Assembly (NCBI RefSeq): GCF_029633865.1
Contig: NC_079219.1
Location: 57,655,569-57,719,568, forward strand
Reading direction: 5' to 3'
Origin: Lampris incognitus
Taxonomy: Eukaryota > Chordata > Actinopteri > Lampriformes > Lampridae
Length of the DNA stretch: 64,000 nt
Part shown: in pieces, positions 12,130 through 60,939 of the stretch
Layout of the letters: each line of letters starts with the position of its first letter
How positions within the stretch are numbered: the first letter of the stretch is position 1
Position numbers and translations under genes: made by a program
The notes under the pieces: model-generated
What the model was told of the DNA's origin: nothing
The model's input: the letters and a program-made list of their open reading frames with translations, nothing else
The model's database searches: none

Positions 12130-12220
12130 ACTACTTCCTGTTTACGACTCTCTCCATCTGCGTTTCCCCCCCCCCCGACCTCGCCGCACCGCTTCACGCT
12201 CGGCTCACCTCTGTCTCGGC

Positions 12221-12694
12221 TTATGAACGCTGCAGGGTCAGGAGAAAGTTGTTCAGCCGTTTCCTCCGCAGTTCTCTGCTGCGAACCTCCTCTTCCCCTC
12301 GCCTGGCTTCCTCTCCTTCCACCTCTTTTTGTCTATTCTGGGTTTCGGTGAACTGCGGTGAACAAGTATGCAGAGCTGAATGCCGTTGCAGATTTCCGAC
12401 GCGTGTGCACATTTGAACAGGCGAAAGAATAAACCTTTTTCCATTGGAAGAAAAAAAAGAAAAAGAAGAAGTTGGCATTTTCAGGGGCCGTTTCAATACT
12501 GCACTCACGTGGGGGCTGGCAGTGAGCGGGCTGGAGGTGTCTCGAGTCTGGTAGCGGGGGTCACCGTGGATGACCGTCTCCTCCACCCCCGCCGGCTGAT
12601 CTGAGGGTCAAAGTTAGGCGGTATATGTCAGCGACGGCGGTGCCGGAGAGACGGGATCAAAAACGGCGTGACTTCGGGTGGAATCCAAGCGCTC

Positions 12695-12729
<35 letters not shown>

Positions 12730-15700
12730 CCTTATCCCCCCCCCCCTTTCCTATCTATGATTAGCCAGCGACTGCATGATGGAAAGTGTGGCTTTATTGT
12801 TAATGCTGAAAGCTGATTCCTGCAGGGCCTCTTGGACACCAGTCACTGAGGACAGAAAAGGGGAAACATTTCTGCAGGGAAAAATCCGGTGGTTGGAAAA
12901 CCACTTGGTTTGAACCACTGAGTAAAATATGGAGGGACAAGCCAAGTATGAGACACACACACACACACACACACTAATATACGAGACACAGCGAACAGAC
13001 ATTCATATGCAAGTACAGCACATAAAACTAAAGACACAACGGAGTCCAGCAACACACACACACACACACACACACACCTACAGAAGCAAAAACTAACACA
13101 CACACTTGCTTCATGGACCTGACTTGATGCGGCTGTCGTCCCCATCGGCTCCGTCACAGGACAGTTGTTGTGCGTCCCTCTCTTCTCTCTCGGCCTCCCT
13201 CCGTCTGCCCCTCTCCCTCTCTATCCTCAGCCGGATCTGTCGGTCTCTCACCAGCTCCCAGTTCCTCATTAGGAACACGTGGTGCGTCACCACAAAGCTC
13301 CTGGACGGCAGATAAGAGACACACACCGGCAATTAGCGGCGACGTCGGCCGGAGCACCGGTCCGGCGGCCGGGCCGAACGCGTCGGTGTCCTGTGTTTTC
13401 ACGGTGTTTGGGGTTTTGCCGCCGTACCTCTCGCTGCCGGTCAAAGGCTCCATGTCCAAGTGAGGAAAAAGGCTGGCGATGTCACCGGAGCACTCCTCCT
13501 GAAAAGAACCAGATGGCCCGAGTTGGAACCCGTGTTTCACAGTTTACGACCGGGACGGAGCATCTTTCTGCTCGACCTACGGAAACTCACCCATGTCTGC
13601 TGTGTGGCGGCGTGCTTCTCCTTCAGTCGGCCTGCGGGGGGGGGGGGGGGGGAGAGAGAGAGAGAGAGAGAACGACGGGGGAGACGGGGAGTCGGGTCAA
13701 CTTTGGTCTATACGGCCATTAGAAACACGGAGCGTGCTCCGCAAAACCGCCAAAAACAGGACAACACAGTAAGGACACGGATGAAAGACATGAAGTCGAG
13801 GTTCGGCGCCAGTTAAGTCCACAAGACACGCCGGTGAGCCAAAACATTATGACCACCTGCCTAATGTGCTGCTCTGTGTGCCACCGAGACAGCGCTGACC
13901 CACTGAGGCACGGACGCCACAAGACCCCTGAAGGTGTCCTGTGGTATCGGGCCACCAAAACATCAGCAAGCAGATCCTCCGAGTCCGGTAAGCTGCGAGG
14001 GGATCGGACTTGTCAGTCCAGCGGGTCCCACGGATGCTCAATCAGATTGAGATCTGGAGAATTTGGAGGCCGGGGCAACGCCTCGAACACTTCATCCTGA
14101 AATATGTGTGTAGTGCAGAGGGGGGGGGGGGGCGGGATTATCCTGCGGAAAGAGGCCACTGCCGTCAGGGAATACCGTTGCCATGACGGGGTGTACGTGG
14201 TCTGCCACGATGTTCGTGGAGCTGGCACGTGTCAAGTTGACGTCCGCACGAACGGCCGGACCCGGGGTTTCCCAGCAGAGCATCGCGCTGCCTCCACCGG
14301 CTCGTCGGTTTTCCCACAGTGCACCCCGGTGCCATCACTTCCCCCAGGTAAATGGCGCACATGGTACACGGCCATCCGTGTGATCCGAAAGAAAACGGGA
14401 CTCATGGGACCAGGCGACCTCCTCCCACTGCTCCAAGGTCCAGCTCCCGACGCTCATTTAGCCGTTGCAGGCTCTTTCCACAATGGACGGGGGTCATCAT
14501 GGGCTACGCGGCGCCATACACAGCAGGGTGCGGGGAAGCCGGATGTGGGTATGTGTCCCGGTCGCTGCACTAGCGCCTCCTCTGGTCGGTTGGGGGCGCC
14601 TGTTCAGGGGAGAGGGGGAACTGGGGGGGAATAGCGTGATCCTCCCACGCGCTACGTCCCCCTGGTGAAACTCCTCACTGTCAGGTGAAAAGAAGCGGCT
14701 GGTGACTCCACACGTATGGGAGGAGACGTGCGGTAGTCTGCAGCCCTCCCCGGATCGGCGACCGGGACGGCTCGGAAGAGTGGGGTAATCGACCGAGTAC
14801 AATTGGGGAGAACATTTTAAAAAAAAAGAGAAAAAACAATCATTAAAATACTGCATGATTTGTGCCACAGTGGACCGTCTGTCAGTTCAAACCAGGTGAT
14901 GGGATAGCCTTCGTTCGATAGCCTCGGGCGTCCAACACCCTGTCACCAGTTTGTGGTTTGTCCCTCCTTGGACCTACTTACCACTGCTGACTGGGAGCGC
15001 CCCACAAGCCTTGCCCTTTCAGAGATGCTTCTGACCCAGTCGTCTTCTGGCCCAGTCGTCTTCTGGCCCAGTCGTCTTCTGACCCAGTCGTCTTCTGGCC
15101 CAGTCGTCTTCTGACCCAGTCGTCTTCTGACCCAGTCGTCTTCTGACCCAGTCGTCTTCTGGCCCAGTCGTCTTCTGACCCAGTCGTCTTCTGACCCAGT
15201 CGTCTTCTGGCCCAGTCGTCTTCTGACCCAGTCGTCTTCTGGCCCAGTCGTCTTCTGACCCAGTCGTCTTCTGGCCCAGTCGTCTTCTGGCCCAATCGTC
15301 TTCTGGCCCAGTCGTCTTCTGACCCAGTCGTCTTCTGACCCAGTCGTCTTCTGGCCCAGTCGTCTTCTGACCCAGTCGTCTTCTGGCCCAGTCGTCTTCT
15401 GACCCAGTCGTCTTCTGGCCCAGTCGTCTTCCGACCCAGTCGTCTGGTCACAGCAACTTGGCCCTTGCCAAAAATGCCCAGGTCTTTACTCCCTGCCCAC
15501 CCTCAAGGCTCAGCCTTTTCGGTTTTTTACCGATGTTCACCGAGAAATACCCAGATTTTCAAACTCATCTTCCCCCGGATTTTACGTTTCCACGGATCCA
15601 AAAGTTGTTCCTGTTCGCGTGACGTTGTGCAACGGTGTCCTCTTGGGGCGAAATTCGGCGTGCCGGATGGCTTTGAAAAAGAAAAAACCGAAAACGCTGA

Positions 15701-17881
15701 GCCTTGCCCATCCTGCATCCAACACGTGGACTACCAGAAAGTGCGCTAATCTACCCAGACCCTGACATGTGCACTTGTCTGGAGATGATCCACGTTATTC
15801 GGTTCACCCCCCCCCCGCGAGTGGTCATAATGTTTTGGCCCATCGGTGTATGTCGAGACACGGCGAACGACTGAAAGCAGCCGTGAGTGAGTGACGGAAA
15901 GAGAGAGAGAGCGAGAGGGAGCTAGACAGAGGCAGAGACACCGAGAAATGGATGGGGACCTATGAACCAAACCGGTGTGTCTCACATCTCCTGTGCCGGT
16001 TACTCACAGTAGTGCCGCTTCCTCTTCAGAGGTACAGCCGGCTGCCTGTGAAGCTGTAACAAAACATCTGGTCAACATCCTGGTTTAAACATGTACATCG
16101 TATATTCATGACACGCGGCTGATTTTCATTTTGAACACCGTTATCTCCTCCCAGGAGACCTCGGCCGGGCTTTCCCCCCCCCCCCCCCCCCTAAGCAAGA
16201 ACAACGGTCATGTCACTGAAGCCGTCACAGGTGTTTGCTAGACTTCTCACACTGCCACTTCCTGATGCGTGTGTGCCTCGTGGCGGGGCAATACCTGGTT
16301 GTTCCTCCAGAGCCATAAAACATCGTAGGGCAACTGGAAATCAATGCGCTTCAGCCTCAGGTATTTCCCTTTTGGAGACATAAAGAGAGGCTTCGTTAAT
16401 TTGTCCCGTTAGGGAGCAGCTGGGGCGCCACGTGGGATGCCCGCATGTACATACGGCCGGCGACGGCATGTTCTCGTATGCTCACCGACGTGGATGGGAG
16501 CGGGCAAAAGGCTGTAGTCATGCTCTCCCGGCGTGTACTCCACACTCTCCCTCTCTCTGCTGACCGGCTGGATTTGGGAAGGGGGACTGGAAAAACCAGA
16601 CGACCGCACTTACAGGATGGACAGAAACCTCAGCCGCAGAGGAACATCGGGTTGTACCTAATATTTCTGTTATGCGGTGCCCGCAGCCTAATTAAACTCA
16701 CTCAGTAGTCTTGTAATCGTCAGAGTAGAGACCGGCTCTCAGGAACTTCTTCCCGGGAGGGCTGTCAGCTCTCTCCTTCCGCTGGACGGCGGCTGTTTGG
16801 GACGGTGCCTGGTCGAACTCTGACTGACCAAAACAATCGAAGGGGGCGTCGTCGCTCTCTGGCTTATCTTCACTGAAACTAAAGGGAAAGAAAAAGGAAA
16901 AAGATAGAATGACAGGGAGAGAAAAAGAGAAAGAGAGAAAAGGCACTGGCTTAGCACACAGTGCTGAAAACCGTGTGTTAATATAGAGGTGCTGTGCTGC
17001 TGGACTGTATTTCCAATGCAAGTCACCCAGTTCAGGTGGCTGATGCGACAGACGGGGGGGAAGCGTTCGGTCTTTACCTCTGATGACAGGGGGAACTACT
17101 TCGCCTCCTCTTCTGTCCCTTCTTTCTCTTGGCGTGCCCCGCCAACTCAGTCACCTGCCACACCGCGTCGCCGCCGTCCCTCTCTCTCCCCCCGGCTCTC
17201 TCCTCTCTCCTCCCTGCCGCTCCCCTCCCGTCTCGGCCGCCGTGGATGTGCCCCGGCAGGATGCTGGGTAAGGACAGCGGCGGGGTGGCGGAGGAGTGAA
17301 GGGCGGAGGACATCGGCGAAGGCAGTGGGTGCTTCCTGGGCCGGCCCGGCCCTCTCTTCTTCTGCAAAGCCGCACCATCTGGTACTGGCACGCTTTTCGG
17401 CTGCCCCTGGCCTCGGGAGTCACCTTGTAAACCTACAGTCAGAAGAAATGGAAGCGTGTTTGTGCGGGTGTGTGCGTGGGGTGGGGGTGGGGGTGAGGGT
17501 GGGGTGGGGGTAGGGCAGAGAGGAAATGAGACAGATGTGGATCAGTAATTGAGCCAGCAGGAGGTGTGAGGTTGCGAGGCCACTCTCGGCTGAGTCATGT
17601 GGACGGTCTGCAGATTAGGTGAGTCACAATATTTCCTCTGACCAGATCACTTTCTGGGAAAAGCATTAAGGAGTGATTTATGCACACACGCACACACGCA
17701 CACACACACACACACACAAACCAAATGGAAAATGAACACAAATACAACACTGCAAGCATACCTCGGCAATGTGCAAATGCACTAAATCATGCACACATGC
17801 ATGTGCACGCTCTTTTTAGACATTCGTCGATGCAGTCTATCGAGCAACATCTCAAGAGACGGAAAAAAATGGAGGAGGGGG

Positions 17882-17930
<49 letters not shown>

Positions 17931-20900
17931 GGGAGGATAAAGTATGCATGAGTGTGGCAAGTTGCTGAGACGTCTTACTCACAAAACACGTGTTCGGCTA
18001 AACGATACACCGATGCCAAACATATTCCAGCCCTTTCAAACATGTGTTCTCCTATCCCTTCATCTACAAACCCCGCCCCCCCCGAATCCTTCACTACTCC
18101 TCCACCGATCCCTCCTCCTGAGGTCAGCTCCCTCCTTTTGTTCCGTTCTCCACAGTCCCTGACAACACTGACCACTCTTTCCTTATTGGATTTTTCCAAG
18201 TCAAACAGGCCGTGTTGGCCGGGCGGAGACAGCGAGGCAGAGGCAGGCTTTAAATAGCTGCTCTGGTGGTTAACTAATGACCGTGTTCACTGGGTAGCCC
18301 CGGGCTGCAGTAGTGTGCGGTTTTCTACAGACCAGGAAGATTTCAAAGATTTTCTGGCAGATTCCCATCGAGATGCTGCCCGCCTGCTGGCCTGCCCGCT
18401 GCAACGCTTTCAGAAAGAATCCGAGAGAGAGAGAGAGAGAGAGAGAGAGCGGTTGCTGAGCGGTTGTGCATTTTTGTGTGTGTGTGTGTGTGTGGGGTGT
18501 GGGGGGTGGGGGGTGGGGGTGGAGGGTGGGTGTCAATGTGTCAGACACGTCCCCCTGCTCGGCGGAGGGAGTCTGAAATCGGCTATAAAAAGAACAGAGT
18601 CTGATTTCCTCTCAAAAAAGACCCCCCCCCCCCCCCGGTCTTTGATGTTGCAGCTCAGCAACACCTGAGGAGAAGTGGCGCCGCCGCCGCCGCCGCTATA
18701 TCGGGCACGCCGTCGCTATCACCGTCTTGTCTCCGCGCTGCGAAAATCTGAAAAATACGTCACAGCCGGCGAGTGAAAAGCGGCTCTTGGCACGGTCCCC
18801 CGTTCGCTCTGCTGAAAATGTCACAATTTTGTTGCCGTTTTTATCCATCACGTGCACATCTCGGTAAGTCATCTAATGTGACGGCGTCTAACCACCTCGG
18901 TGGATCTCCACATCATCTGAGTAGTTCATCTAATGTAACGGCGTCTAACCACCTCGGTGGATCTCCACATCATCTGAGTAGGTCATCTAATGTAACGGCG
19001 TCTAACCACCTCGGTGGATCTCTACATCATCTGAGTAGTTCATCTAATGTAACGGCATCTAACCACCTCGGTGGATCTCCACATCATCTGAGTAGGTCAT
19101 CTAATGTAACGGCGTCTAACCACCTCGGTGGATCTCCACATCATCTGAGTAGTTCATCTAATGTAACGGCGTCTAACCACCTCGGTGGATCTCTACACCA
19201 TCTGAGTAGTTCATCTAATGTGACGGCGTCTAACCACCTCGGTGGATCTCCACATCATCTGAGTAGTTCATCTAATGTGACGGCGTCTAACCACCTCGGT
19301 GGATCTCCACATCATCTGAGTAGTTCATCTAATGTAACGGCGTCTAACCACCTCGGTGGATCTCCACATCATCTGAGTAGTTCATCTAATGTAACGGCGT
19401 CTAACCACCTCGGTGGATCTCCACATCATCTGAGTAGTTCATCTAATGTAACGCCGTCTAACCACCTCGGTGGATCTCCACATCATCTGAGTAGGTCATC
19501 TAATGTAACACCATCTAACCACCTCGGTGGATCTCCACATCATCTGAGTAGGTCATCTAATGTGACGGCGTCTAACCACCTCGGTGGATCTCCACATCAT
19601 CTGAGTAGGTCATCTAATGTAACGGCATCTAACCACCTCGGTGGATCTCCACATCATCTGAGTAGTTCATCTAATGTAACGGCGTCTAACCACCTCGGTG
19701 GATCTCCACATCATCTGAGTAGTTCATCTAATGTGACGCCATCTAACCACCTCGGTGGATCTCCACATCATCTGAGTAGGTCATCTAATGTAACGGCGTC
19801 TAACCACCTCGGTGGATCTCCACATCATCTGAGTAGTTCATGTAACGGCATCTAACCACCTCAGTGGATCTCCACATCATCTGAGTAGTTCATCTAATGT
19901 AACGGCATCTAACCACCTCAGTGGATCTCCACATCATCTGAGTAGTTCATCTAATGTAACGGCGTCTAACCACCTCGGTGGATCTCCACATCATCTGAGT
20001 AGGTCATCTAATGTAACGGCATCTAACCACCTCGGTGGATCTCCACATCATCTGAGTAGTTCATCTAATGTAACGGCGTCTAACCACCTCGGTGGATCTC
20101 CACATCATCTGAGTAGTTCATCTAATGTAACGGCGTCTAACCACCTCGGTGGATCTCTACATCATCTGAGTAGTTCATCTAATGTAACTGCATCTAACCA
20201 CCTCGGTGGATCTCCACGTCATCTGAGTAGTTCATCTAATGTGACGGCGTCTAACCACCTCGGTGGATCTCCACATCATCTGAGCAGTTCATCTAATGTA
20301 ACGGCATCTAACCACCTCGGTGGATCTCCACATCATCTGAGCAGTTCATCTAATGTAACGGCGTCTAACCACCTCGGTGGATCTCCACATCATCTGAGTA
20401 GTTCATCTAATGCAACGGCGTCTAACCACCTCGGTGGATCTCCACATCATCTGAGTAGTTCATCTAATGTAACGCCGTCTAACCACCTCGGTGGATCTCC
20501 ACATCATCTGAGTAGTTCATCTAATGTAACGGCATCTAACCACCTCGGTGGATCTCCACACCATCTGAGTAGTTCATCTAATGTAACGGCGTCTAACCAC
20601 CTCGGTGGATCTCCACATCATCTGAGTAGTTCATCTAATGTAACGGCGTCTAACCACCTCGGTGGATCTCCACATCATCTGAGTAGTTCATCTAATGTAA
20701 CGGCGTCTAACCACCTCAGTGGATCTCCACATCATCTGAGTAGTTCATCTAATGTGACGGCGTCTAACCACCTCGGTGGATCTCCACACCATCTGAGCAG
20801 TTCATCTAATGTGACGGCGCCTAACCACCTCGGTGGATCTCCACATCATCTGAGCAGTTCATCTAATGTGACGGCGCCTAACCACCTCGGTGGATCTCCA

Positions 20901-23900
20901 CATCATCTGAGTAGTTCATCTAATGTGACGGCGTCTAACCACCTCGGTGGATCTCCACATCATCTGAGTAGTTCATCTAATGTGACGGCGTCTAACCACC
21001 TCGGTGGATCTCCACATCATCTGAGCAGTTCATCTAATGTGACGGCGCCTAACCACCTCGGTGGATCTCCACACCATCTGAGTAGGTCATCTAATGTAAC
21101 GCCATCTAACCACCTCAGTGGATCTCCACATCATCTGAGTAGTTCATCTAATGTAACGGCGTCTAACCACCTAAGTGGATCTCTACATCATCTGAGTAGT
21201 TCATCTAATGTAACGGCGTCTAACCACCTCGGTGGATCTCCACATCATCTGAGTAGTTCATCTAATGTAACGCCATCTAACCACCTCAGTGGATCTCCAC
21301 ACCATCTGAGTAGTTCATCTAATGTAACGGCGCCTAACCACCTCGGTGGATCTCCACATCATCTGAGTAGTTCATCTAATGTAACGCCATCTAACCACCT
21401 CGGTGGATCTCCACATCATCTGAGTAGTTCATCTAATGTAACGGCGTCTAACCACCTCGGTGGATCTCCACATCATCTGAGTAGTTCATCTAATGTAACG
21501 GCATCTAACCACCTCGGTGGATCTCCACATCATCTGAGTAGTTCATCTAATGTAACGGCGTCTAACCACCTCAGTGGATCTCCACATCATCTGAGTAGTT
21601 CATCTAATGTGACGGCGTCTAACCACCTCGGTGGATCTCCACACCATCTGAGCAGTTCATCTAATGTGACGGCGCCTAACCACCTCGGTGGATCTCCACA
21701 CCATCTGAGTAGGTCATCTAATGTAACGCCATCTAACCACCTCAGTGGATCTCCACACCATCTGAGTAGTTCATCTAATGTAACGGCATCTAACCACCTC
21801 AGTGGATCTCCACATCATCTGAGTAGTTCATCTAATGTAACGGCGTCTAACCACCTCAGTGGATCTCTACATCATCTGAGTAGTTCATCTAATGTAACGC
21901 CATCTAACCACCTCGGTGGATCTCCACATCATCTGAGTAGTTCATCTAATGTAACGGCGTCTAACCACCTCGGTGGATCTCCACATCATCTGAGTAGTTC
22001 ATCTAATGTAACGCCATCTAACCACCTCGGTGGATCTCCACATCATCTGAGTAGTTCATCTAATGTAACGCCATCTAACCACCTCGGTGGATCTCCACAT
22101 CATCTGAGTAGTTCATCTAATGTAACGGCATCTAACCACCTCGGTGGATCTCCACACCATCTCGACCATCCAGAAAGACAGACACCTTTTTTTGCAGATG
22201 AAATGGGACAAATTCAAACGACCCACAGAAAGATAATCCCGCAAGCCGTTGTATATGAGATTGTAAAGTTAAATATAAAGGTGGCAGGGCGTCCGGGTGG
22301 CGCGGCGGTCTATTCCGTTGCCTACCAACACAGGGATCACCAGTTCAAATCCCAGTGTTTCCTCTGGCTTAGTCAGGCATCTCTACAGACACAACTGGCC
22401 GTCTCTGCGGGTGGGAAGCCGGATGTGGGTATGTGTCCTGGTCGCTGCATCAGCCCCTTCTCTGGTCGGTCGGGGCGCCTGTTCGAGAGGGGGGAGGGGG
22501 GGGGACTGGGGGGAATAGCGCGATCCTCCCACGCGCCACGTCCCCCTGGCGAAGCGCCTCACTGTCGGGTGAAAAGAAGCGGCTCACGACTCCACATGTA
22601 TGGGAGGAGGCATGTGGTAGTCTGCAGCCCTCCCCGGATTGGCAGAGGGGGCGGAGCAGCTACCGGGACGGCTCGGAAGAGCGGGGTGATCGGCCAAGTA
22701 GAACTGGGGAGAAAAGGGGGGGAGGGGGGGAATCCAAAAAAATAAAAGGTGGTACGGGTCTTTTTTCCCCACCCGTATTCCTTTCTGCAAAAAAATGCCC
22801 AGATTGTAAGACTTAAAGACCACCAGTCAAGCCGATGATCTAGTTGGTCTACCTGGGTGGTGGTGGTGGGGGGGGGTTAATAACTCAGACCAGATCAGGA
22901 AGACACTGCTGGGAGTAGAAAAAGCATTCAGGTAGCAATCTGTGCAAGGCGCTTAGTCCTGGTGAGTTTTTCTAGGACATCATATTCGCTTGTTGCACAG
23001 TGCAGGTCCATTCTCGCCCCTTAGCCATCTGAGGTTCTACAACCAAGCACGGCCACACAGAATCCAAACTCCAGGGTATACATGTAGTTATCACTAACGG
23101 CAAAACGACGGCCTGAAACTCTTACAGGACTTGCTTTTATAAACAGCGTCTTGACTATTCCGTTACACAGCCTGTTATCCTTGACATTTTTTATTTCTCC
23201 CCAACTGTACCCGGCCAATTACCCCACCCTTCCGAGCCGTCCCGGTCGCTGCTCCACCCCCTCCTCCGATACATGTGGCGTCGCCAGCCGCTTCTTTTCA
23301 CCTGACAGTAAGCAGTTTCACCAGGGGGGGACATAGCGTGTGGGAGGATCACGCTATTCCCCCCAGTCCACCCCCCGAACAGGCGCCCCCAACCAACCAG
23401 AGGAGGCGCTAGTGCAGCGACCAGGACACATACCCACATCCGGCTCCCCACCCGCAGACACGGCCAAGTGTGTCCTTGACTTCTTGACGAGTCAGAAAAG
23501 TGGACGACGTGTTTGCTGGTCTAGTTGTTCCCTAACCTGCTAGCATATACAGCTAGCATATACAGCTAGCATATACAGCTAGGCTACTGGCATTAATCTG
23601 CTTCTTCTTCTTCTTCTTTCGGCTTGTTCCCTGTTTCCCAGGGGTCGTCCCGGCAGAGCTGACGGCTCCCGTTGGTACGCTGTGAGGGCACAGCGCCAAC
23701 GGCGGCCTCGTCAAGCCGCATAATGATTTGGCAAAACGTTACGTCGGATGCCCTCCCCGACACAACCACCGACCCTGTGCACGGGGGCACAGGCGAAGCG
23801 CTGGGTGCCGTCCCAGTATTCCCATGCCTGTTGGCCATTAACTGCAGCACCTTTAAGATACGCTGTCGGAGCTGGCGCCACACTTGCCCTCCAATGGGTC

Positions 23901-26900
23901 CTCGTGAAAGGATTTAAAGTGTACTCGCTCCCATTCCAGGGCCTCCAAAGAGTCCCGTATTGTCATTTTTCGTCACTACCGGCACTAACAAACATAGATG
24001 AACTTATATGAATATATGAACAAAGGTACTGCTGTCTACACAAACACAGTTGTGCAGTGCCAAGTGTGGGGCCTTATTACCACGGCATCGTAGTATTTTG
24101 TAGGGCTGTCCCGGACACCTTTTGGGCTACGAATATTCGGCAGCAAGTATTCAAAGGTATTCGGAGCTTTGCTATGTGACGGGGTGGGGGTGGGGGGTGA
24201 TATGCAACACTCAAATAAATTGTAGTCTTAAGACTATAAAAACTAAACTGCTGATGTTTGCTGTTATTATTAATGAATTCTGTCTTTAGCACACGCTATC
24301 ATCAGGCTGTTATTGCAATGAATTATGATGCTGTCGAGAGGCGAAATCGGACTTCAAGGTTCATCCATCCATCCATTATCCAAGCCGCTTATCCCAGTTG
24401 GGGTGGCGGGGATGCTGGAGCCTATCCCAGCAGTCATTGGGCGGCAGGCGGGGAGACACCCTGGACAGGCCGCCAGGCCATCACAGGGCCCACACATTCA
24501 CACCTAGCGACAATGTAGTAGGGCCGATTCACCTGACCTACATGTCTTTGGACTGTGGGAGGAAACCGGAGCACCCGGAGGAAACCCACGCAGACACGGG
24601 GAGAACACGCAAACTCCACACAGAGGACGACCCGGGACGACCCCCAAGGCTGGACTACCCCGGGGCTCGAACCCAGGACCTTCTTGCTGCGAGGCGACCG
24701 CGCTAACCACTGCGCCACCGTGCTGTGTTTCCTTTTTAGTGAAATAAACTGGCTACAAAAACACGTTCAAAGCGAAATCGGTTGCTCATGAAAGTGTTTT
24801 TTTTGTCAGTGTAGACCTTCACGTGAAATCTTAAATAGTTAACGGCTTTACTGCTGTTGCCTTGAGATCAAAAAAAAAAAAAAAAGTGTGGCGTGTAAAA
24901 CCGAGAAGCTACTTCCAGTTTTCAGGCGATTTGGCAAACTTCCAAGATTTGGGATATCGGATATTTTCGGCATATCGGGCGCTTGTGTTTTTTGGGGGTC
25001 ATTTTCACAAATTTTGAAGTTATGCCAGACGCCTGACTTTTTGGACCTCTTGCCAAACTAGCTGTGAGTCACATCCTATGACGTCGCGTTGGGAGTAGAA
25101 GAGCCAGCGTGCTGTGTTCACGTGGACAGTTTTTCCCGTTTTATCCGTGCTGTGTTGCCAACTGCCGTTTAGCATCTCCCAAAAATAAAACATAAAAAAC
25201 AGAATATCGATTTTGCCGTTGATTACTATGGTAATGATCAAAGGCTTCGAAGCCTTCATGTCGGCCCTAGTATTTTGTCCTGTGCCACCGAGGATTATCA
25301 TGCATTTAAACCACAGTCAGTTTTCCTCTACAACTAGGAAGACATCTTTCCTTAGTTTTCCAGGTGCCAAACGTTAGAGGTAGTCAACAACATCAGTGTT
25401 GTTGGGTCCATCTCTGCAACAGTTTTTATTAATGCTCACAAAAATTCATTAGTGGCCATTAGACAGCAGCACTATGCTGTCAGACATTCATCCATCCATC
25501 CACTCATCCTATCCATCCATCCATCTGCTCATATTTCCATCCATCCATCATCCCTCCCTCCTTTCACTCACCCCTTCCTCCCTCCATCCATCCATCTCGC
25601 AGTCAATCCATCCTCACCTGTGCCTCTCTTCTCTCTCCAGGGTAGCTCCTCCCTCCTCCATGACCTGTCGCCACTCCCGGGACTCCAACTGATCACGCCA
25701 CTCTTCAGTCCCTTCCCTCCTGTTGCCATGGCAGCAGAGGTGAATAGGTTGATGTGTGTAGGGGACGTGGATGTACCATATGATGTATGAGTGTCTTGGA
25801 TCTCAGCATCTTCCTCCTCTCTGTCTGACCCAACCCTCCTTCCGATCTGATGACCCCCAGCGAAGGTTCTCCAGCTGGGGTTGGACAGTCCGAATCCTGG
25901 CCCCCCCATGACCCCTGTCTTCATCATGGACTGGCCAATACCACCCCAGCCCCCTCCGAATGAGGACAGGTGAGAGGAGCCCAAACCCAGTGAGCTGAGA
26001 GATGTGTGTTTGAACCTCTCAGATGAAGATGTTGACGACGAGGAGGCGCAGGCGGCTGCAGCAGAAGAGAAGTAATCTTTTCCGTTCCTGCGTAACCACG
26101 GAGATTCAATTGACCCAAGAATCCCTGTACTCCTAGTCCCTTTCCTACTGCTTTCTCCTGCCCCTGTTGTGAACCCCGACCTGGGTTTTGATCCAACCAA
26201 TCTCCTTCTCTCCACGTCTTCTTCCTCCTCATCCTCCAGCACCCCTTCTTCCTCCATGTCTTGCTCGCAGTGTCGGTGACGGTGTTTACGCTTGTGTTTA
26301 TGTTCGTTTCTCCCACAGCCACAGGAGAGGCTAGAGGTGAACCCTGGGGCGAGCCGCAAGCTACCTCCTCCTCCACCGCCTCCCCCTAAATCTCCCTGAC
26401 CCTCTATCACTAAACCTCCCTCCCGCAGCAACCTACTCCTTCGCCTTTGGAACCTGGCTGGGTTGAGGAGGAACGGAGGGTGTTGGGGCTGATGCGGGGC
26501 ATATTGGTGGGGAGGTGGAAGGGGGTAGGAGCTATGGAGGTGGGGGTAGAGTGGTGTGGTCGGGGGATAACCTCTGTAGAAGCCCATGTTGTCAACAGTC
26601 TCCTGGAACTTTGATGGACAGCTGCATTGCCTGCGGTCTGGCTTCCTGCCACAGTGCAGGGACTGGCATGGGTAGAAAGGCTGGGGGCTGAAGGAGGGAT
26701 TGGAGGGATAAGAGGAAGGATGAGGGGAGTAGAAGCCATTAAGATTGATCCTGAAGATATTGGAGCGGAGAGGGTGCGAGGAAGAGGAGTGATGTCGTCT
26801 CCCTCTTGCAGTGCTCCCGGTCTCCTCATAGCCCTGGATCAGGGCAGACCTTGCCCAGCCTCGGCGTCCAATGTGAACCTCACTGAACTGTCCAATCAGA

Positions 26901-29900
26901 TCCTCTAACTCAGACAGAAACTCTGGGTCATGCGCGTGCAGCTGCTGGTGCTTCTTCTTGTGTTTGTTTTTCTGTCTCTTCAGTGCATTGTGTCCGAGGC
27001 AAGGGTAGTAGTCTAAATGGGTGCACTTGTTATGTCCTTGGCAGGGGCACGAGCACACGCAGGTGCAGGAGGAGACACAGTCATACTCCCTCTGTCTGTG
27101 TCTATGTCTCTCTCTGTGTCGCTCCACGGTACCTGGACTGGTAATGGTGTGTGTGTGTCTATGCGTGGGGGAGATGGGTATGGGGACAGGGGAAGGCCTG
27201 TCGACAAGAGGGCAGGGTTGTCTCTGCCCCCCTAAGACCACCGCTGACCCCTGAACCATTCTGAGTGCGCTTCGACTTCCCCTCAACTCTCCTCGCTCAG
27301 AGACGCTGTTGTTATCAGTGCCAATTCCGCTATCACTCGGCAAGGTCTCTTCGCTGTGTGACTCACTCCTCGGGGAAGGCGTGGCCTCTTTCAGGTGTGC
27401 GGGGGAGCCAGGTGTGTGATGGAGGTGGGAGCTGGGCGAGGACAGCTTGCAGGAGGACTGGTGAAAAGGGAAGTGGTGCCTCCCCTGACACGGGCAACTT
27501 TTCTTCACAAAGGGGGAGAGGGACGAGGAGGAGGGGGGGTGGGGGGAAGTGCAGGAGGAAGAGGGGGAAGGCAGGGAGAAGGGGTGAGAAAAAAGGAGGG
27601 ATGACGATGCCGTTTCTGTGAAGCTGCCCTCACTGTAGGGGCTTTGGGCCCCACTGGAGTGGGTAATAGAAGGGGAGGGGAAAGGGTGGGATGGTGGAGG
27701 CTGGGGCTGGTTGGAGAAAAGGGAGGTCTCAGACGGATTGGTGAAGAGAGACACCCGAGCTGAATTCTGGGAGTTGGGGTTCAGGACAGCCGTTTGAACT
27801 TTAGGCTTGCGCCCTCGCCTTTTGCCCATGTAGATGGTCCCTCTCTTGCTCACGTTGATCTGAGGGCCCAGCTTCCCCCCAAATGAGGTGGAAAGAGAGG
27901 AAAGCGTGTGTGTCGCTGTGGTCTCTATCGACTTAAACCCTCCAGGAGAAGACACCACATCTGCCTCTTTGTTCCTACCCCGTCTATCTCCGTGGTCAGA
28001 CAGCATTCCTGTGTGAAGTCTCTTCCTCTTTCTCTTCTTCATCTCACTGATAAGCCTCCTGATCTTCAGCTGCCTGTTCACCTTTTCGGGGTGGAAGTCT
28101 CTTTTCCTCTCCTTAACAACAACAGTGTGACACAACAAATCGCCATCTCCGCTCAGGTCCTCGGATAGGGGCCGCTTGGGAGGACGGCCACGTTTCCTGG
28201 GTGTGGAGATAAGCTTGGTGGGCCCAGGAAGGACTGCGCTAGCTTCCTGTACAGAGGGTTTCAAGGCTCCTTCGCATCCCACAGGAGGCTCCTCGGGGGT
28301 TAGAATAGCTTTGGGGGAGCATCTAGGTGGATACTCCTCTAAGCTAGGGGTGTGGAACTTGGGGCGACCCCTCTTTCTGCCGGCTCCTATGAATGACCTA
28401 GGGGGAGTGGAGCTGGAGTCAGAGTTGGGGGGACTCTGGTTCGGGGATGGAGGTTCGGTTACAGAGGTGAAAGGGAAGAAGTTGGGGGGTGGGGCGGTAG
28501 AATGGGTCAGGTGTGACTCGTCTGTCTGCTGGGTGTGGGCTTTGATAGGGGAGCAGGCCTTCGAGTTTTGGGATAAACTTAGTAACGGACTCTGGTGGGA
28601 GTCCGTTAGCGTCTCCTGGTTTTCTTGTCTTTGAGCTCGGTGTACCAGTTTGGTCCAACTTGGCCGTCTGGCTTTACGTTTCTTAAGCGGTCGGCTGTCC
28701 TGCTCTGGGGGCGAGGAGGTGGGCGAGGTGGGGGAGCGAGTAGAGGGGAGCGGGAGAGAGGGAGGAGAAGACGGCTGGCTCGGAGGCACTGTCAGATGTC
28801 TTTGAGGGACATCTTGTTCCTTTGATTTACTTGCATCACCTGTTGCTGCTGGCTCAGCCTGTTCAACTAGCGTGCGGGTCTCATCCGCTTTGTCTCTCTG
28901 ATCCGGACTGCCTGGGTTTGCTATTTTAAAGATCTTTTCTGGCTTACCACTATAATCTATTTCCGATAGTTTATCTCTGTTGTCTTTCCCCACGTGGCCG
29001 TCTGGGCTTATCTTTTGCTTCTTTCGCTCAGCCTTTCCTCTCCCAGTCTTCTCGGTGTCATCCCTCCGAGTAGCAGTAACTCTACCTCTGTCATCCTTTC
29101 CTTTCCCGCGCCTCGACTTACCCTCCTTCTCTTTCTTCTTCTTTTTGCCTTCCTCCTTCCTGCCCTCACCCTTCACCCGATCAACCTCTCCTTTGTCTCG
29201 CTTGGATTTCTTTTCTTTCCGTTTCTCTTTCTTTGTTTTCCTCTCTTTCTCTCTCTTGTTGTTTTTCTCTCTCGGAAGCGAGGGCTGCAGAGGACAATCC
29301 TGTCTTTGGGAATGGCCAGCGGGGACTGTCACAAGGGTAGGGAATTGTGGGTTAGCGGTTGCAGAAGGAGAGAACGGCGAATCTGTCCCACATTTCGGGT
29401 ACAGGTGGTGTTCTTTATGGGAGTTGCTGGAGATGGGGTGTCTCACAGGAGGGTCCGCGTCGCCGAGAGTGGCCGAAGTGGAACCCACATGCTTTCCAAC
29501 TTTGACCATTGTGGTCTTGGCGGTGTCAGCAGAGCCTTCGCCATTTGACAGTCCCTTCTGTCGCCCAGGCTGCACCAAACCATTATGCTTGTTAAGGGCG
29601 TCTCTCTCAAGCCTGGGTTCCCCTGCTGAGGGTGTTGGCAGAGATGGGGTAGAAGGAGCAGTGGCCCCTGTCTGGTCTGTTTTGATGGAGCAGGGCTTGT
29701 GTCCAGTAAGGACCGGCTGGCCGTTGACGCTAGGAGGCTTCTCCCTCTTCACTTTCTCGGATGAGCCGCTCGAGTTTACCTCTGTCTTACTGGCCAATTT
29801 GGCATGAACCTGGGGATGCAAACAGGTAATCTCTGTCAAAAACAATAGAGGCTCTAATACCCATTATGTTGTTGTTGACAAAAGTGGAGGACAAGGGCAC

Positions 29901-31468
29901 TCAGCGAGAACACAAGGACTTTAAGGCTTTTGTTTTTTTTTGTCTGACCATTGCAAAAAGAGATTAAGGACAAAATGGCTCAACCGGGGGAGAGAAAAGA
30001 GGGTGCACTGACAAGCAAGGAGACAGCGAGGTGGTGGTGGTGGTGGAAACGGGAGTGGGGTTGACACAGAAAAAAGGATAAATACAAAGGCAGGGAAACG
30101 AACGAGCGAGATAGGGTGGGGGGGGGTGGGGTGAAAGATAAATGAGAGCAGGTAGAGAAAAGAGGGGACAGAGATGTAAAAATAGAAGAGAGGGGCAGAG
30201 ATAGAGGGTGAAGGGGAGTGAAAGAGAAAGAGATGCAGCTGTGCTATTGGTAGCTATAAATTGCCACTAATAGAGACGGGAAGGCTTGACATTTCGTCTT
30301 GTCCTGTAATTTTGGAATGCCGCAGTTTGAGTGGCGTTTTTGCAGCTAAAGCAATAAGCTTCCCCTTGGGTGATTGTCATAAAGACTGATGAACCAATGT
30401 CTGTATCGGCTCCTAGTAGTTGCTGTGCTGCTGTCCTATTTATAGGTCTGTTTACCCAATCTCGCTGCTTAGGTTTCAGGATTGAGACAATAGCTCATTT
30501 GAACTTATTATCAATGTGCAAAAAAAAATAAAAAATGAAGGGGCAGTTTTGCACCAAAGAAATCTACCTGGATGTTGACTATAAACAGCACTACAACAGC
30601 ACATACGTGTGCCATCAACAATGAACTGCTATCTGGTTACGACTGTCTTCAGTCACTAGGCCAATTTCCCTTCCTTCCACTACTTATTTTTCCATCTTGA
30701 TTTAGTTCAGCTGATAGTTGGTTTAATAATAACGGTTGACATAAAGGAATATGTGTGCGTGTATGTGCGACAGAGAGCCGAACGCCCTTGTCCTTAACTT
30801 ACCTGTTTGGCTGGCTTGGTCCCAGGGCTGGCTGGAGCGGGGACCGATGCTGGGTTGGAGGCTGTAGGAGCTGCTGATGATAACGGCGGTAGCTGCAATG
30901 TCGACGATGATGGGGGTGGGGGCGGGGTTGGTGGCGGTGCAGCTGATGCAGTTTGTTTGGACTGGGTTTGGACCGCGTCCAAGCCTGAGCTTGGCTCTCT
31001 GGTCGTGTCCTCTGGTGAGGGGCTGGCTTTGCCCTGCTGGCCAACTCCTCCCTCTCCATCCCCCCTCAACACTCCACCCCTGCCCTGCCTCTGGTAAGTC
31101 CTGATGTTGGGCTTGCAGACATAGCTCTCCAGAATCTTGGGTGGCTTCTTGGTGCGTTTGGCCTGGAGTCCGATCCGGAGTCGGACATTCCCCTCGGGAC
31201 AGCCGGTCTCTCTGCCCGGGAACGGAAGCTGACGCTGCCCCGTGCCTCCACAGCGTCCCTCGATGAACAGCTCCAGCACTGCCCCCTTGTCTCCTTCTTT
31301 CTTTTTGCTCGCACCTCTCCTCTCCTCCTCCCTCTTTCCTGAGTCTGCGTTCTCCGGCTCACCTCTCCTCCTCCTCTCCGCCACTCTGTCCTGTTCAGAG
31401 TCCTCAGGTGGCGAGGCGAGGGGGGTTTGTGGGGCCGGAGGGGTACCCCCCTTCGCTCTCTGGTCCAT
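12221..31468 (-). CDS. ash1l: ash1l-type gene lacking SET, bromodomain, PHD and BAH exons
   Basis: Twelve exons, all GT-AG and phase-consistent: 31468-30803, 29809-25618, 17432-17078, 16878-16702, 16586-16486, 16368-16295, 16053-16008, 13631-13591, 13498-13428, 13300-13119, 12600-12509, 12352-12221. They total 2043 codons with the stop; human ASH1L has about 2970. Matches in order: [15 protein letters not shown] near residue 110; the AT-hook exon; [63 protein letters not shown] with the FxLP motif that binds MRG15; then [19 protein letters not shown], which in human directly precedes the bromodomain. AWS, SET, post-SET, bromodomain, PHD and BAH are not found. ASH1L is an H3K36 methyltransferase, so this product would be catalytically dead. 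The last two exons match human weakly (RLNNFLLTL against RLNQILLNLL) and are less certain. Start: Met at 31468 in the first exon containing homologous sequence. Confidence 0.82.
14530..14818 (+). repeat. SINE family A, copy 4 (headless fragment in Tc1)
   Basis: Begins within the body at GAAGCCGGATGTGGGT and ends in the GGGGAGAA-type A-rich tail. The tRNA-like head is absent. It lies inside the Tc1 element and is therefore younger than it. Confidence 0.75.
15027..15440. repeat. 17-bp tandem array grown from Tc1 transposase sequence
   Basis: About 24 copies of GACCCAGTCGTCTTCTG, with GACCC/GGCCC as the main variant. The last unit runs straight into GTCGTCTGGTCACAGCAACTTGGCCC, which resembles the N-terminal helix-turn-helix region of fish Tc1 transposases. 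The seed unit is therefore transposon coding sequence. Three units make 51 bp, so a minus-strand frame of 157 codons stays open; it is not a gene. Confidence 0.85.
15504..15706. mobile_element. Small inverted-repeat element (hAT-like MITE) nested in Tc1
   Basis: About 203 bp with 24-bp terminal inverted repeats (CAAGGCTCAGCCTTTTCGG at the left, matched at the right with one mismatch). It is flanked by CCCACCCT (496-503 of the 15-kb block) and CCCATCCT (15707-15714), an 8-bp duplication with one difference, consistent with hAT. Confidence 0.65.
17884..17926 (+). repeat. (GA)n microsatellite
   Basis: About 21 GA units in an ash1l intron. Similar dinucleotide tracts occur at 12,698-12,726 (TG), 13,053-13,075 (CA), 17,690-17,717 (CA), 18,423-18,450 (GA), 31,859-31,888 (GA), 34,436-34,467 (CA), 52,940-52,980 (TC), 53,262-53,288 (GT) and 56,964-56,990 (GA). 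Confidence 0.9.
18863..22175 (+). repeat. 57-bp minisatellite, about 58 copies
   Basis: A 3.3-kb array in an ash1l intron, antisense to that gene. The unit is 57 bp (19 codons) and on plus reads as [19 protein letters not shown]. One frame is open over 18773-19855, breaks at one shortened unit near 19840 and is open again for 834 codons to 22745, running into a SINE. Common variants are GTA/GTG, GCG/GCA, CAT/CAC and AGT/AGC (silent), plus A-to-P, S-to-P, G-to-S, P-to-L and S-to-R. Each unit has a CCACC-TC-GGTGG mini-hairpin. There is no signal peptide or known domain. I treat it as a satellite, not a gene. Confidence 0.92.
22287..22747 (+). repeat. tRNA-derived SINE, family A, copy 5 (full length)
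   Basis: The head begins GGGCGTCCGGGTGGCGCGG, with the A box around TGGCGCGGCGGTC and a B box near AGTTCAAATCCC. The complete body and a GGGGAGAAAAGGGGGG tail lead to an A-rich end. It lies just right of the 57-bp array. Confidence 0.85.
23187..23472 (-). repeat. SINE family A, copy 6 (5'-truncated)
   Basis: Reverse orientation. Tail and body are present (CTCCCCAACTGTACCCGGCC on plus at the left, CCGCAGACACGGCCAAGTGTGT at the right), but the tRNA-like head is missing, as expected from incomplete reverse transcription. Confidence 0.8.
23598..23920 (-). repeat. Degenerate RTE-related fragment
   Basis: The words TTCTTTCGGCTTG, GATTTGGCAAAACGTTACG and GGATGCCCTCCCCGACACAACC resemble the two termini of the RTE-type LINE at 45502-48085, here brought close together. 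It is probably a short non-autonomous or internally deleted relative. No host exon was seen. Confidence 0.45.
24101..25269. mobile_element. hAT-type transposon with nested SINE B
   Basis: The ends are inverted: TAGGGCTGTCCCGGACACC at the left and a right end reading CGACATGAAGGC...GGCCCTA. Flanks are a perfect 8-bp target duplication, GTATTTTG, at 24093-24100 and 25270-25277. SINE B copy 1 (24361-24724) sits inside and is younger. No transposase frame remains, so this is a non-autonomous copy in an ash1l intron. Confidence 0.8.
24361..24724 (-). repeat. tRNA-derived SINE, family B, copy 1
   Basis: The minus-strand head carries an A box in GGTGGCGCAGTGGTTAGCG and a B box in GGGTTCGAGCCCC. The body has GTCCAAAGACATGTAGGTCA and the 3' end is ATGGATGGATG repeats. 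There are five family-B copies in this window. Inserted in the hAT element. Confidence 0.85.
25618..29809 (-). CDS. ash1l: Giant second coding exon of ash1l
   Basis: A 4192-bp exon without a stop, from acceptor CCCCAG at 29810 to donor GTGAGG below 25618. It encodes a mostly disordered, Lys/Ser/Pro-rich region with AT-hook motifs ([29 protein letters not shown]). Blocks conserved with human ASH1L include [100 protein letters not shown] and INLFTSA. The human block that follows INLFTSA (about 230 residues, including the QRQARKM segment) has no counterpart. The exon instead joins in phase to the [10 protein letters not shown] exon at 17432. Confidence 0.9.
30804..31468 (-). CDS. ash1l: First coding exon of ash1l
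   Basis: Starts at Met 31468 ([14 protein letters not shown]) and ends at donor GTAAGT below 30803. It carries the ASH1L signature [20 protein letters not shown] followed by [10 protein letters not shown]; the human sequence here is [21 protein letters not shown] Pro/Ala-rich low-complexity tail follows. The frame is also open upstream to 31636, but that part contains a poly-T-derived Phe run and a splice acceptor (CACCTCAG), so Met 31468 is preferred. Confidence 0.85.
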
Positions 31469-34469: not shown

Positions 34470-36400
34470 CACACAACACGTGTTACTGTTGTCATCCAGG
34501 CTCTCTCCGCGATAACGTACAGGCCGTGTTTACGCCATATAGGATAACAGCCTGGGGGGGGTGGGGGGGGGACGCCAACTCAACACCAAACTAGGCCGAA
34601 TCACGTCAGGGGGTTTGTTTTCGGTATCCCCGAGACGCGAGCGGGACTAAAAGCACAGCCTGCCCCCCCCCCCACCCAAAAAAAAAAGCAACCCCCTTCT
34701 CTCCTACCCGTCCTCCGCCGCCTCTCACGCTGGTGTCAGCGACGCCGAAATAATAAACGTGACCGCCCGCGGCGGAGAGAAGCGCGCACGGCAACAAGGC
34801 GGCGGGGCGGGGGGGGGGGCGGCGGGGGAGGGGGGGTATAATTAGCGCAAAAGCGGGACGCAAACGGACTCCCGTCTAAAGCAGCTGCGCTCGCTCGCTC
34901 GCCCCCCCCCCCCGGGAGGGGGGGAGGAGGGGGGGAGGCGGCGGACGGTGCCGGGCCTGCGCACACGTCAACGCGGAGGGACCCGCCGCCGATGTGACAT
35001 TTTGTTGCGACAAGGCTACGCAGAGGCTACTTACTCGGAGAGGAGCGCGTCCCGCGACCCACTGCGTCCGGGCAGCGGCTCAAGGTGTCGCCGCCGTCCC
35101 GCTCCGTCGCTGGCGCCGGCGGCGATCCGAAAGCTTGTGGCGCATTATTAGGTGTCGCTCGGGTTACGTAACCAAGGCCGCTACACCTCCGAAAAACCAG
35201 TTCCCCCCTCGCCGGGGCGCGTAGCCGTCCGTGCAACAACATTCGCGCGGGTGTTTTCATAATCATACAGTCGAGAGAGAGAGAGAGAGAGAGAGAGGGA
35301 GGAGGGGGGGGAGGAGGAGAGAGAGAGAGAGAGGGGCGAGAGAGAGAGGGAGAGCTCCGTGGGCGCGTCTCCGCAGCTAGGTGGCGAACTTGGGACCGTG
35401 CGGGCGGGCTGGGGTTGTTATTTATTTTGCCACTTTTCTCCGAAGGGGGGGGGGAGAAGAAAAAAGAAGAAGAAGAAGAAGAAAAAGAAGAAGAAGAAGA
35501 AAAAGAAGAAGAAGGAAAAAAAGACGAAGAAGAAGAAGAAGAAAAAAGAAGAAGAAAAAAAAGAAGGAGAAGAAGAAGAAAAAAAAAGTTACGTCGTTTG
35601 ACGCCGCTGCGAAACAGCGGGTCCGAGCCCGCGCTTCCTTTCTCGGGCGCCTCCGCGGGACGATCAGCTCAAGGCGGCCCCGGCGCCTCGCCGCGCCACC
35701 GGTCTCCCGGAGAGCCCGGCAAATGTGCGGGAATGTAACGGCGTGGCCATTTTCGTGCGCCCGGAGGAGGAGGAGGAGGGGGAGGAGGAGATAAAACCCT
35801 CGGCGTACGGCGCAGGGACCTCGTCGCGGTTCATAACAGCAGATCGGGGAGGGCTATTTAGACGCCTAATAAAATGGCGACGGCTACGCATAAGAAGTCG
35901 GATGGGTGTGAGGGGGGGAGGAGGAGGGGAGGGAGGGGGGGTTCAAAACTTCTGCCACCCGCTATAAAGCGTCTCAGCTGTCGGCTTGCGGAGAGAAAGG
36001 CGGACCGCTGTGAAGCCCGCCGAAGAAGTGTGGCGTTTTAAAAACGCGCGTAACGGCCAAATGAGATGCGTCGTGCCACATCATGCGATGCTGCCGCCGC
36101 CGCCGCTTTTTTTCTCATCACACCAGGCGGCGTTAATTTCAGGCATAACAGAAATCGACGTTACGCCAACAGGAGGAGGAGGAAAAAAATGTATTTAAAT
36201 TGGGTGAAACTTTGGAACTTGAAAACACAGGTCGCCTTCTTAATAATAATAATAATAAAAATAAGAAACAATTTTCCCGTCTCCGAAAACAAGCATCGAG
36301 TGTTTAATCTTCATTTAAAATCCGCCCCGCATACCTCCCGAAACGTGTACCTTAAGCGTCGTCGCACGTGAGACATTGCCGAACTCAAAACTACCTTCGC
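32000..36400. other. ash1l 5' intron/UTR and CpG-rich spacer to dap3
   Basis: No coding exon was identified. Base composition turns strongly CpG-rich at about 34,740-36,600, as expected for the ash1l 5' end facing dap3. The stretch contains a CT-rich block (32,540-32,645), CA repeats (33,850-33,875; 34,436-34,467), C-tracts (32,990; 33,238; 33,462) and a long polypurine tract (35,270-35,590). AAAATGGCGAC at 35,871 is a YY1-like motif. The non-coding first exon of ash1l was not placed. Confidence 0.4.
35274..35588 (+). repeat. Polypurine tract, (GA)n then (GAA)n
   Basis: Nearly pure purine blocks, with (GA)n at 35,274-35,345 and GAA/AAG-rich sequence at 35,455-35,588. The minus strand is a polypyrimidine run within the CpG-rich ash1l-dap3 spacer. 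Such mirror-like tracts can adopt triplex DNA. The Lys/Glu-rich frames across it are not genes. Confidence 0.85.
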
Positions 36401-36668
36401 GTCCCTTCTGACGCCTGCGCGCGCGACACGGCTCGCGCCGGGTTTGACGCGCGCGCGCGCGCGCGCCGCTGGCGAAAGGACGGCCCGGCGACGTCACTTC
36501 CGCCAGCGTCAAGCGCCAATGGCGGTGCCCGTGACGTTTCGCGCACCCCGGTAGCCCGGCCGATGTTGCGCGGCTCTGTCGACGGTCTCACGGCCTCCGT
36601 ATATCGACGACTTCGTCAGAAAACAACAAATTTTTTACCCAATAAATCTTGAACGAGCTGATCTCCGG
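36400..36668 (+). promoter_or_regulatory. dap3: dap3 promoter and non-coding first exon
   Basis: A CpG-rich stretch ending in a donor (CTCCGG|GTGAGT, after 36668) that precedes the ATG exon. It contains a (CG)n run around 36,450-36,467, a CRE-like CGACGTCAC joined to an ETS site ACTTCCG (36,496-36,502) and CCAATGGCGG, a CCAAT/YY1-like box (36,516-36,525). ETS, CRE and YY1 sites are typical of promoters of nuclear genes for mitochondrial proteins. The exact start site is not known. Confidence 0.5.
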
Positions 36669-36923
36669 GTGAGTGACGAAGCTGTTGCGAAATAGGCCCG
36701 CGGCGCTCAGCGTTAACGCCTGTTTGTGCTTTACGGTTAGCTAACGGCTAGCCTAGCCTAGCCTAGCCGTCGGCTAAGTGTTGACGCAAGGTTATCGCCC
36801 GGCGGAAACTGCAGTCTTGTGGCTGCTGCCGGCGGTCTGCGTCTGCGTCTTCGTTGATATTCTTGTTGTGCTGGTGAAATTAATAATAGCCTTGCGTTCA
36901 TTCGGTCGCCTCTTTTACAGATC

Positions 36924-51211: not shown

Positions 51212-51266
<55 letters not shown>

Positions 51267-52935: not shown

Positions 52936-52984
<49 letters not shown>

Positions 52985-53254
52985 ACTCTCAAAGGAAACT
53001 GGGCTCCTTTCTGTCCATTTAGTTTGCATGGGTGCATTCACTGGTGGCTCGGTGGTTAGCGTGGTGGCCTCACAGCAAGAAGGTCCTGGGTTCGAGCCCC
53101 AGGGTAGTCCAACCTTGGGGGTCGTCCCGGGTCGTCCTCTGTGTGGCGTTCGCATGTTCTCCCCGTGTCTGCGTGGGTTTCCTCCGGGGGCTCCGGTTTC
53201 CTCCCACAGTCCAAAGACATGTAGGTCAGGTGGATCGGCTGTACTGAATTGTCC

Positions 53255-53291
<37 letters not shown>

Positions 53292-56833: not shown

Positions 56834-56959
56834 TCAGAATGACCATCTCTCCTGTGTGCGGGGGTCCGTGGAGAGGGAGGGGGACTCTGGCAGGGGCTGG
56901 CTGCTGCTGTCATCTTCTCCATTCAAACCCTTCCTACACACTGGGCAGGTATCATGCTG

Positions 56960-56997
<38 letters not shown>

Positions 56998-60892: not shown

Positions 60893-60939
<47 letters not shown>

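Follow-up and report, generated by a model that had tools for sequence, protein, structure and literature searches.

A second ash1l gene in Lampris incognitus that lacks the SET and reader domains, a candidate non-catalytic scaffold for MRG15

The window analysed here, 64,000 nucleotides of Lampris incognitus contig NC_079219.1 (C12:57655569-57719568, in a genome of 1.48 Gb and 537 contigs), carries on its minus strand a copy of ash1l, the gene of the H3K36 (histone H3 lysine 36) dimethyltransferase ASH1L/Ash1 (KMT2H), in which a long reading frame has stayed open and the exons for the catalytic and chromatin-reading domains are missing. As far as our searches show, the genome holds two ash1l genes, one with the enzyme, on contig C24, and one without it, in the window. 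Judged from its sequence, the window copy is dead as an enzyme; that it is dead as a gene does not follow. With a probability of roughly 0.6, we read it as the gene of a non-catalytic, DNA-binding scaffold or decoy for MRG15, kept since the teleost genome duplication.

The window gene and its missing domains

The gene was rebuilt from the DNA as 12 exons encoding 2042 codons and a TAA stop; all 11 of its introns are GT-AG, all phases are consistent, and there is no frameshift (Table 1). An earlier note, made from the letters alone, had described just such a gene, and the boundaries that it quoted proved exact (start at 31468, then 16053-16008, 13631-13591, 13300-13119, 12600-12509, and 12352-12221). 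By base composition, the chance that exon 2 by itself would stay open is ~1e-23. The in-order alignment with ASH1L was likewise borne out: N-terminal, middle, FxLP, and pre-bromodomain parts match human ASH1L and follow one another in the human order (the human sequence being a reconstruction, in place of a database entry, in this and every other human match, alignment, and motif count below), and exons 6-7 match the ASH1L chains 6ago_A (expect value, E, 6.2e-12) and 6ine_A (E 6.8e-12). This collinear homology, which includes the N-terminal and pre-SET segments, marks the gene as a descendant of ASH1L, and its intact frame and splice sites, with a weak exon 10 donor, are those expected of a functional gene. 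Splice donors were scored with approximate splice-site frequencies, and the ten donors other than that of exon 10 range from 4.4 to 12.6 bits.

The caveats on the earlier proposal mainly concern the C-terminal end of the model. The path from 13300-13119 through 12600-12509 to 12352-12221 holds in phase and boundaries; the exon 10 donor is weak, and exons 11 and 12 are doubtful. Because of that donor, the protein may end just after exon 10: with the donor unused, a stop comes two codons on, and an AATAAA stands at 12798. None of exons 8, 11, and 12 was matched by human ASH1L in a search that extended to E 10. The score of exon 11 against the C24 C-terminal exon was reached by 1844 of 2000 shuffles, and that of exon 12 by 113 of 2000 against C24 and 127 of 2000 against human, a weak likeness.

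Three lines of search confirmed the claim that the AWS-SET-postSET block and all three reader domains (bromodomain, PHD finger, and BAH) are missing. At E up to 10, the AWS, SET, bromodomain, PHD, and BAH parts of human ASH1L found no match in the window, and the window product matched none of the Pfam families. Relics were sought with 15 exon peptides of the C24 gene (13 from the lost blocks and those of the last two exons) in the window, extended by 9.6 kb on the downstream side, at E up to 20. All 15 were recovered in C24 at E 1e-3 as a positive control, and none gave a credible hit among the best 25 matches in the searched stretch. The best of these (E 0.017) falls in exon 1 but on the wrong strand, tandem repeats make up most of the next ones, and an 11-residue BAH-like match near 12374-12342 (E 0.75) is among the very weak ones; as relics of the SET or reader exons, these candidates were rejected as wrong-strand, repetitive, or very weak. 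The window gene thus has neither the AWS-SET-postSET module of a SET-domain H3K36 methyltransferase nor the reader module of ASH1L, and the readers are absent from the predicted protein whichever C-terminus is used. Because the SET domain is absent, H3K36 methylation by the product is very unlikely.

A human segment around HVNKILKAKK, which precedes exon 3 and is present in C24 (27135004), was not found at 25.6-17.4 kb of the window, where the giant exon 2 joins exon 3 directly, in phase. Its absence is possibly a third, smaller loss.

Loss of the domain blocks and origin of the copy

A second ash1l with AWS-SET, sought elsewhere in the genome, was found at C24:27149k-27099k, where AWS, SET, post-SET, bromodomain, PHD, and BAH exons are all present. 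The AWS family has five matches in the 537 contigs, only one of them ASH1L-like (its pieces are 71 to 88% identical to human, those of the others 35 to 40%). A BAH family search gave ten matches, one in the C24 ash1l, and a BAH protein query gave nine, with ASH1L-type exons on C24 only and the other six at most 42% identical. A query made of two conserved window segments found six matches, all on C12 or C24. These genome-wide protein-query and family searches score the best candidates only, and the count of a single ASH1L-type SET comes from the family searches for SET and AWS. Out of 35 SET matches, those compared were the eight with loci, those near AWS matches, and three weak ones on C12. 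The last three were considered as a possible relocated SET exon and rejected: one, which shares 65% identity with the C24 SET across 26 residues, we take to be SETD2-type, and the other two bear no convincing resemblance to ASH1L. A further SET match on this contig (L003) is presumably KMT2-type, and six SET-domain matches of equal score (70.3 bits) on C41, C162, C27, and C16 (L005-L008; C41 and C162 are small) represent a multi-copy SET gene or element.

The junctions that close the gap in the window gene can be compared with the C24 exons. Exon 7 equals its C24 counterpart in length (46 nt) and phase. Exon 8 shares five identical residues with the C24 segment GRLKEKRKSKHQLKKR, and both end in phase 0 at GTGAGT; in C12 the exon appears to start in the middle of the post-SET exon, where RLKEK follows a pyrimidine tract and a CAG. 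The ancestral post-SET exon thus probably survives in exon 8 with its 3' part, used from a new acceptor. If this is right, the SET block was lost by a deletion with re-set splicing rather than by a clean loss of exons, and an edge lying within the post-SET exon is a trace that a dropped assembly block would not be expected to leave. At the other end, exon 12 may correspond to the 3' end of the penultimate exon of C24, with a stop gained just before the GTGAG donor; the last C24 exon has no translated counterpart in the window gene.

The earlier note had allowed that the assembly might simply have lost real SET and reader exons, an explanation that we disfavour and regard as highly improbable. 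A single assembly was available, and the repeat arrays of intron 7 are of a kind prone to collapse; against this, there is no N within 8.0-19.9 kb of the window, two separate losses would be required, ASH1L-type AWS and BAH were each found once in the 537 contigs, the BAH on C24, and the edge of the gap appears to lie inside the old post-SET exon at a usable in-phase acceptor. Intron 7 contains a 16-bp repeat array, what we take to be a SINE-like repeat (short interspersed nuclear element), and a relic at 14.0-14.6 kb that we likewise assume to be a Tc1-like transposase. The SINE-like repeat, which adjoins the Tc1-like relic, recurs in the window and in C24.

Evidence on the origin of the copy comes from synteny and divergence within one fish genome. 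The neighbourhood shared by both loci consists of rnf115, which adjoins both ash1l copies in the same orientation (63.6-56.8 kb in the window; C24:27182k-27158k, with one distant N-terminal piece). It was found by an all-frames comparison and then checked with RNF115 and RNF126 as queries, of which RNF115 had the higher score at both loci. Since this neighbour is common to both and equally oriented, the best reading of the window gene is that of a retained teleost-duplication partner of the C24 ash1l. The silent-site difference between the two genes is high (proportion of silent differences, pS, 0.56-0.75 over nine blocks). In zebrafish, according to the portion of PMC2200798 consulted, the SET-bearing ash1l is on chromosome 19, setd2 on chromosome 16, and setdb1a and setdb1b on chromosomes 19 and 16, respectively. 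C12 and C24 may be the counterparts of this chr16/chr19 pair, because the window contig bears the SET exon that we assigned to SETD2. The proposal that the teleost duplication gave rise to a catalytically dead paralogue is therefore supported by the SET-bearing C24 gene, the shared rnf115, and the silent-site divergence.

An older duplication, or a lineage-specific segmental one, outside the teleost event is quite improbable. It would draw on the outgroup being the reconstructed human sequence only, on the comparison of one fish genome, and on gba, which in the window (as gba1) separates ash1l from rnf115 and has no match in the 200 kb of C24 that were covered; of seven human neighbour proteins, one (GBA1) matches the window and none the C24 stretch. 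The rnf115 neighbour at both loci speaks against it, as do the silent-site divergence, which excludes a recent copy, and the zebrafish pattern in the consulted portion of PMC2200798 taken together with the presumed SETD2-type exon.

Table 1. Features of the window and their positions (window numbering).
Feature	Position	Strand	Remarks
Exon 1	30803..31468	-	ATG at 31468; conserved N-terminal block; tblastn with human ASH1L E 4e-14, with C24 E 4e-11
Exon 2	25618..29809	-	giant, 4192 nt; AT-hook-like motifs, SGIGTDNNS block
Exon 3	17078..17432	-	AT-hook-like motif
Exon 4	16702..16878	-	matches human ASH1L and C24 copy
Exon 5	16486..16586	-	matches human ASH1L and C24 copy
Exon 6	16295..16368	-	MRG15-binding FxLP segment; PDB 6ago/6ine match
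Exon 7	16008..16053	-	46 nt, phase 0 to 1
Intron 7	13632..16007	-	C24 counterpart interval houses AWS, SET, and post-SET exons
Exon 8	13591..13631	-	probably 3' part of ancestral post-SET exon (RLKEK...), new acceptor behind pyrimidine tract
Exon 9	13428..13498	-	match to C24 27122700-27122632, E 0.02, collinear
Exon 10	13119..13300	-	weak donor; exons 9 and 10, queried together, match C24 27120240 at E 2.5e-6
Intron 10	12601..13118	-	518 bp, with AATAAA at 12798; C24 counterpart interval houses bromodomain, PHD, and BAH exons
Proposed exon 11	12509..12600	-	doubtful; no homologue found
Proposed exon 12	12221..12352	-	may be 3' end of old penultimate exon; TAA just before GTGAG donor near 12208
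CpG-rich stretch	34501..37000		upstream of exon 1; CpG observed/expected 0.97 to 1.76, window median 0.62
gba1 (glucocerebrosidase)	44021..53936	+	eight tblastn pieces to human GBA1
rnf115 copy	56837..63637	-	neighbour common to both ash1l loci

Tandem repeats are frequent in the window. Intron 2 holds a 57-bp array at 18869-22162 (~58 copies, 95% matches), and the plus-strand open frames of 367 and 970 aa within it were dismissed as repeat, not gene. Further arrays lie at 8276-9216 (36 bp), 15028-15445 (16 bp), 42289-42876 (72 bp), 44550-44840 (41 bp), and 51216-52023 (~19 bp).

The FxLP segment, constraint, and a possible function

What the window copy keeps, next to its N-terminal and pre-bromodomain segments, is an FxLP motif in its ASH1L context, as found in the Ash1 subunit of the AMC complex (Ash1-MRG15-Caf1). 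Passages of PMC5963871 describe that MRG15 binds the FxLP ~40 residues before AWS in both Drosophila and human, that changing FxLP to RxRP in fly ASH1 abolishes co-purification with MRG15, and that MRG15 stimulates activity ~30-fold for a fly fragment and sevenfold for a human one. Prolines P2064 and P2067, next to FxLP, are discussed in a part of PMC8106495, and exon 7 of the window gene retains prolines that match them (human numbering partly approximate). The product has one more F.LP match, at residue 966, where the surrounding sequence is not the ASH1L context. Exon 6, which carries the FxLP, is the best conserved of the nine blocks compared with C24 (79% identity over 24 codons, proportion of non-synonymous differences, pN, 0.09, and pS 0.69), and the giant exon 2 has 37% identity and pN 0.45. 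One simple pattern for AT-hook-like motifs matched four times in the window product, nine times in C24 (up to exon 6), and six times in human; the KKKRGRPPK hook of C24 is lost in the window copy.

The sequence of events that we propose begins with the retention of a second teleost ash1l after the teleost genome duplication. The AWS-SET-postSET and bromodomain-PHD-BAH blocks would then have been lost, while splicing was re-set and the frame kept open. The product would be a long nuclear protein with AT hooks, probably disordered over most of its length and unable to methylate H3K36, whose FxLP segment may dock the MRG domain of MRG15, so that MRG15 would be bound on DNA. There, it could compete with full-length C24 Ash1l for MRG15, the stimulator of that enzyme. 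The teleost-duplication age, the expression, the binding of MRG15, the competition, and the timing of the domain loss are all inferred in this scheme. A more specific form of it, in which the protein is a dedicated antagonist or scaffold that titrates or redirects MRG15 and tunes the H3K36me2 (H3K36 dimethylation) made by intact Ash1l, is tentative, and we would put it well below even odds. A function free of SET is plausible, since in flies, ASH1 without SET can sustain survival to adulthood (consulted portion of PMC8426247).

Several points weigh against a retained scaffold or decoy. A three-way alignment of C12, C24, and human up to exon 6 (1401 columns, approximate and with much low-complexity sequence) has 352 columns identical in all and 434 different in all, with 321 residues unique to C12, 78 to C24, and 216 to human; the roughly fourfold C12 excess over C24 is what relaxed constraint would produce. 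Conservation is also seen at several spots besides the FxLP (in 40-column windows, 30 of 40 columns are identical in the three proteins in the exon 5-6 stretch and 29 of 40 in the SGIGTDNNS stretch), so that the conservation of the FxLP need not concern MRG15, and the constraint seen in a comparison of paralogues may be older than the loss of SET. In the gene model, the exon 10 donor (CAG/GTCCAT) has 1.45 bits, which is above 64% of the minus-strand GTs in 9-20 kb, and the homology of exon 8 is short, consisting of five residues, the phase, and the donor only. A strong donor for a 5' exon was sought in the CpG-rich stretch at 34501..37000, and none was found; that this stretch is a promoter is a weak possibility, and 28 of 128 window bins pass the same mild CpG cut. 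In the fly work (the same portion of PMC8426247), SET is needed for correct cell identity, the rescue of the null by SET-less ASH1 is partial, with an ectopic bristle in >90% of the rescued flies scored, and without BAH, altering any one AT hook abolishes null rescue. By analogy, the window copy, which has no BAH and has lost one AT hook, cannot simply replace ASH1.

These points bear on the alternative that the gene is on its way out, a duplicate that is unconstrained or barely expressed and whose frame happens to be unbroken still, which we consider unlikely though far from negligible. The excess of unique residues, the weak exon 10 donor with doubtful exons behind it, the last C24 exon left without a translated counterpart, the lost AT hook, and the CpG-rich stretch without a strong donor would all suit such decay. 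It is at odds with a frame in which all 2042 codons are open, without a frameshift, and 10 of 11 donors have at least 4.4 bits: an unconstrained frame of this size should usually be broken by ~1% divergence, the probability of survival at 1% neutral divergence being ~2e-4 (indels at 0.1 per substitution) or 0.08 by stops alone. The FxLP exon, moreover, has kept its identity while the giant exon has not, and no clear SET relic stands among the best 25 matches, so that a very recent loss is less likely.

Relation to known ASH1 proteins and significance

The window gene resembles ASH1L/Ash1 in exon order and in its N-terminal, FxLP, and pre-bromodomain segments, and differs from it by the lack of AWS, SET, post-SET, bromodomain, PHD, and BAH and by having more unique residues than C24. 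It shares the docking motif with the AMC complex; unlike the Ash1 of that complex, it offers MRG15 no catalytic domain to stimulate, and MRG15 binding is predicted from the motif. MLL5/KMT2E and SETD5 are likewise members of the methyltransferase family without activity, and they retain a SET domain that the window gene lacks as a whole. The SET-less fly ASH1, which partly supports survival there, is similar in having no SET and differs in being a construct that keeps BAH (as far as the consulted portion of PMC8426247 goes), whereas the window gene is a natural duplicate that has lost it.

Our searches of the open-licence literature brought up no description of a fish ash1l without SET; such genes may stand in annotation databases. 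The consulted parts of a zebrafish SET survey (PMC2200798) and of a tilapia bromodomain survey (PMC9454494) give one ash1l each, as expected because a second copy of this kind has neither domain.

The balance between H3K36 methylation and scaffolding in the action of ASH1L is unsettled. In a vertebrate copy stripped of the enzyme and equipped with an MRG15 dock, nature would have separated these two roles, and such a copy would provide a test of a non-methylating ASH1L function. Fish may have more ASH1L-derived regulators than have been counted, as SET and bromodomain surveys are blind to such copies.

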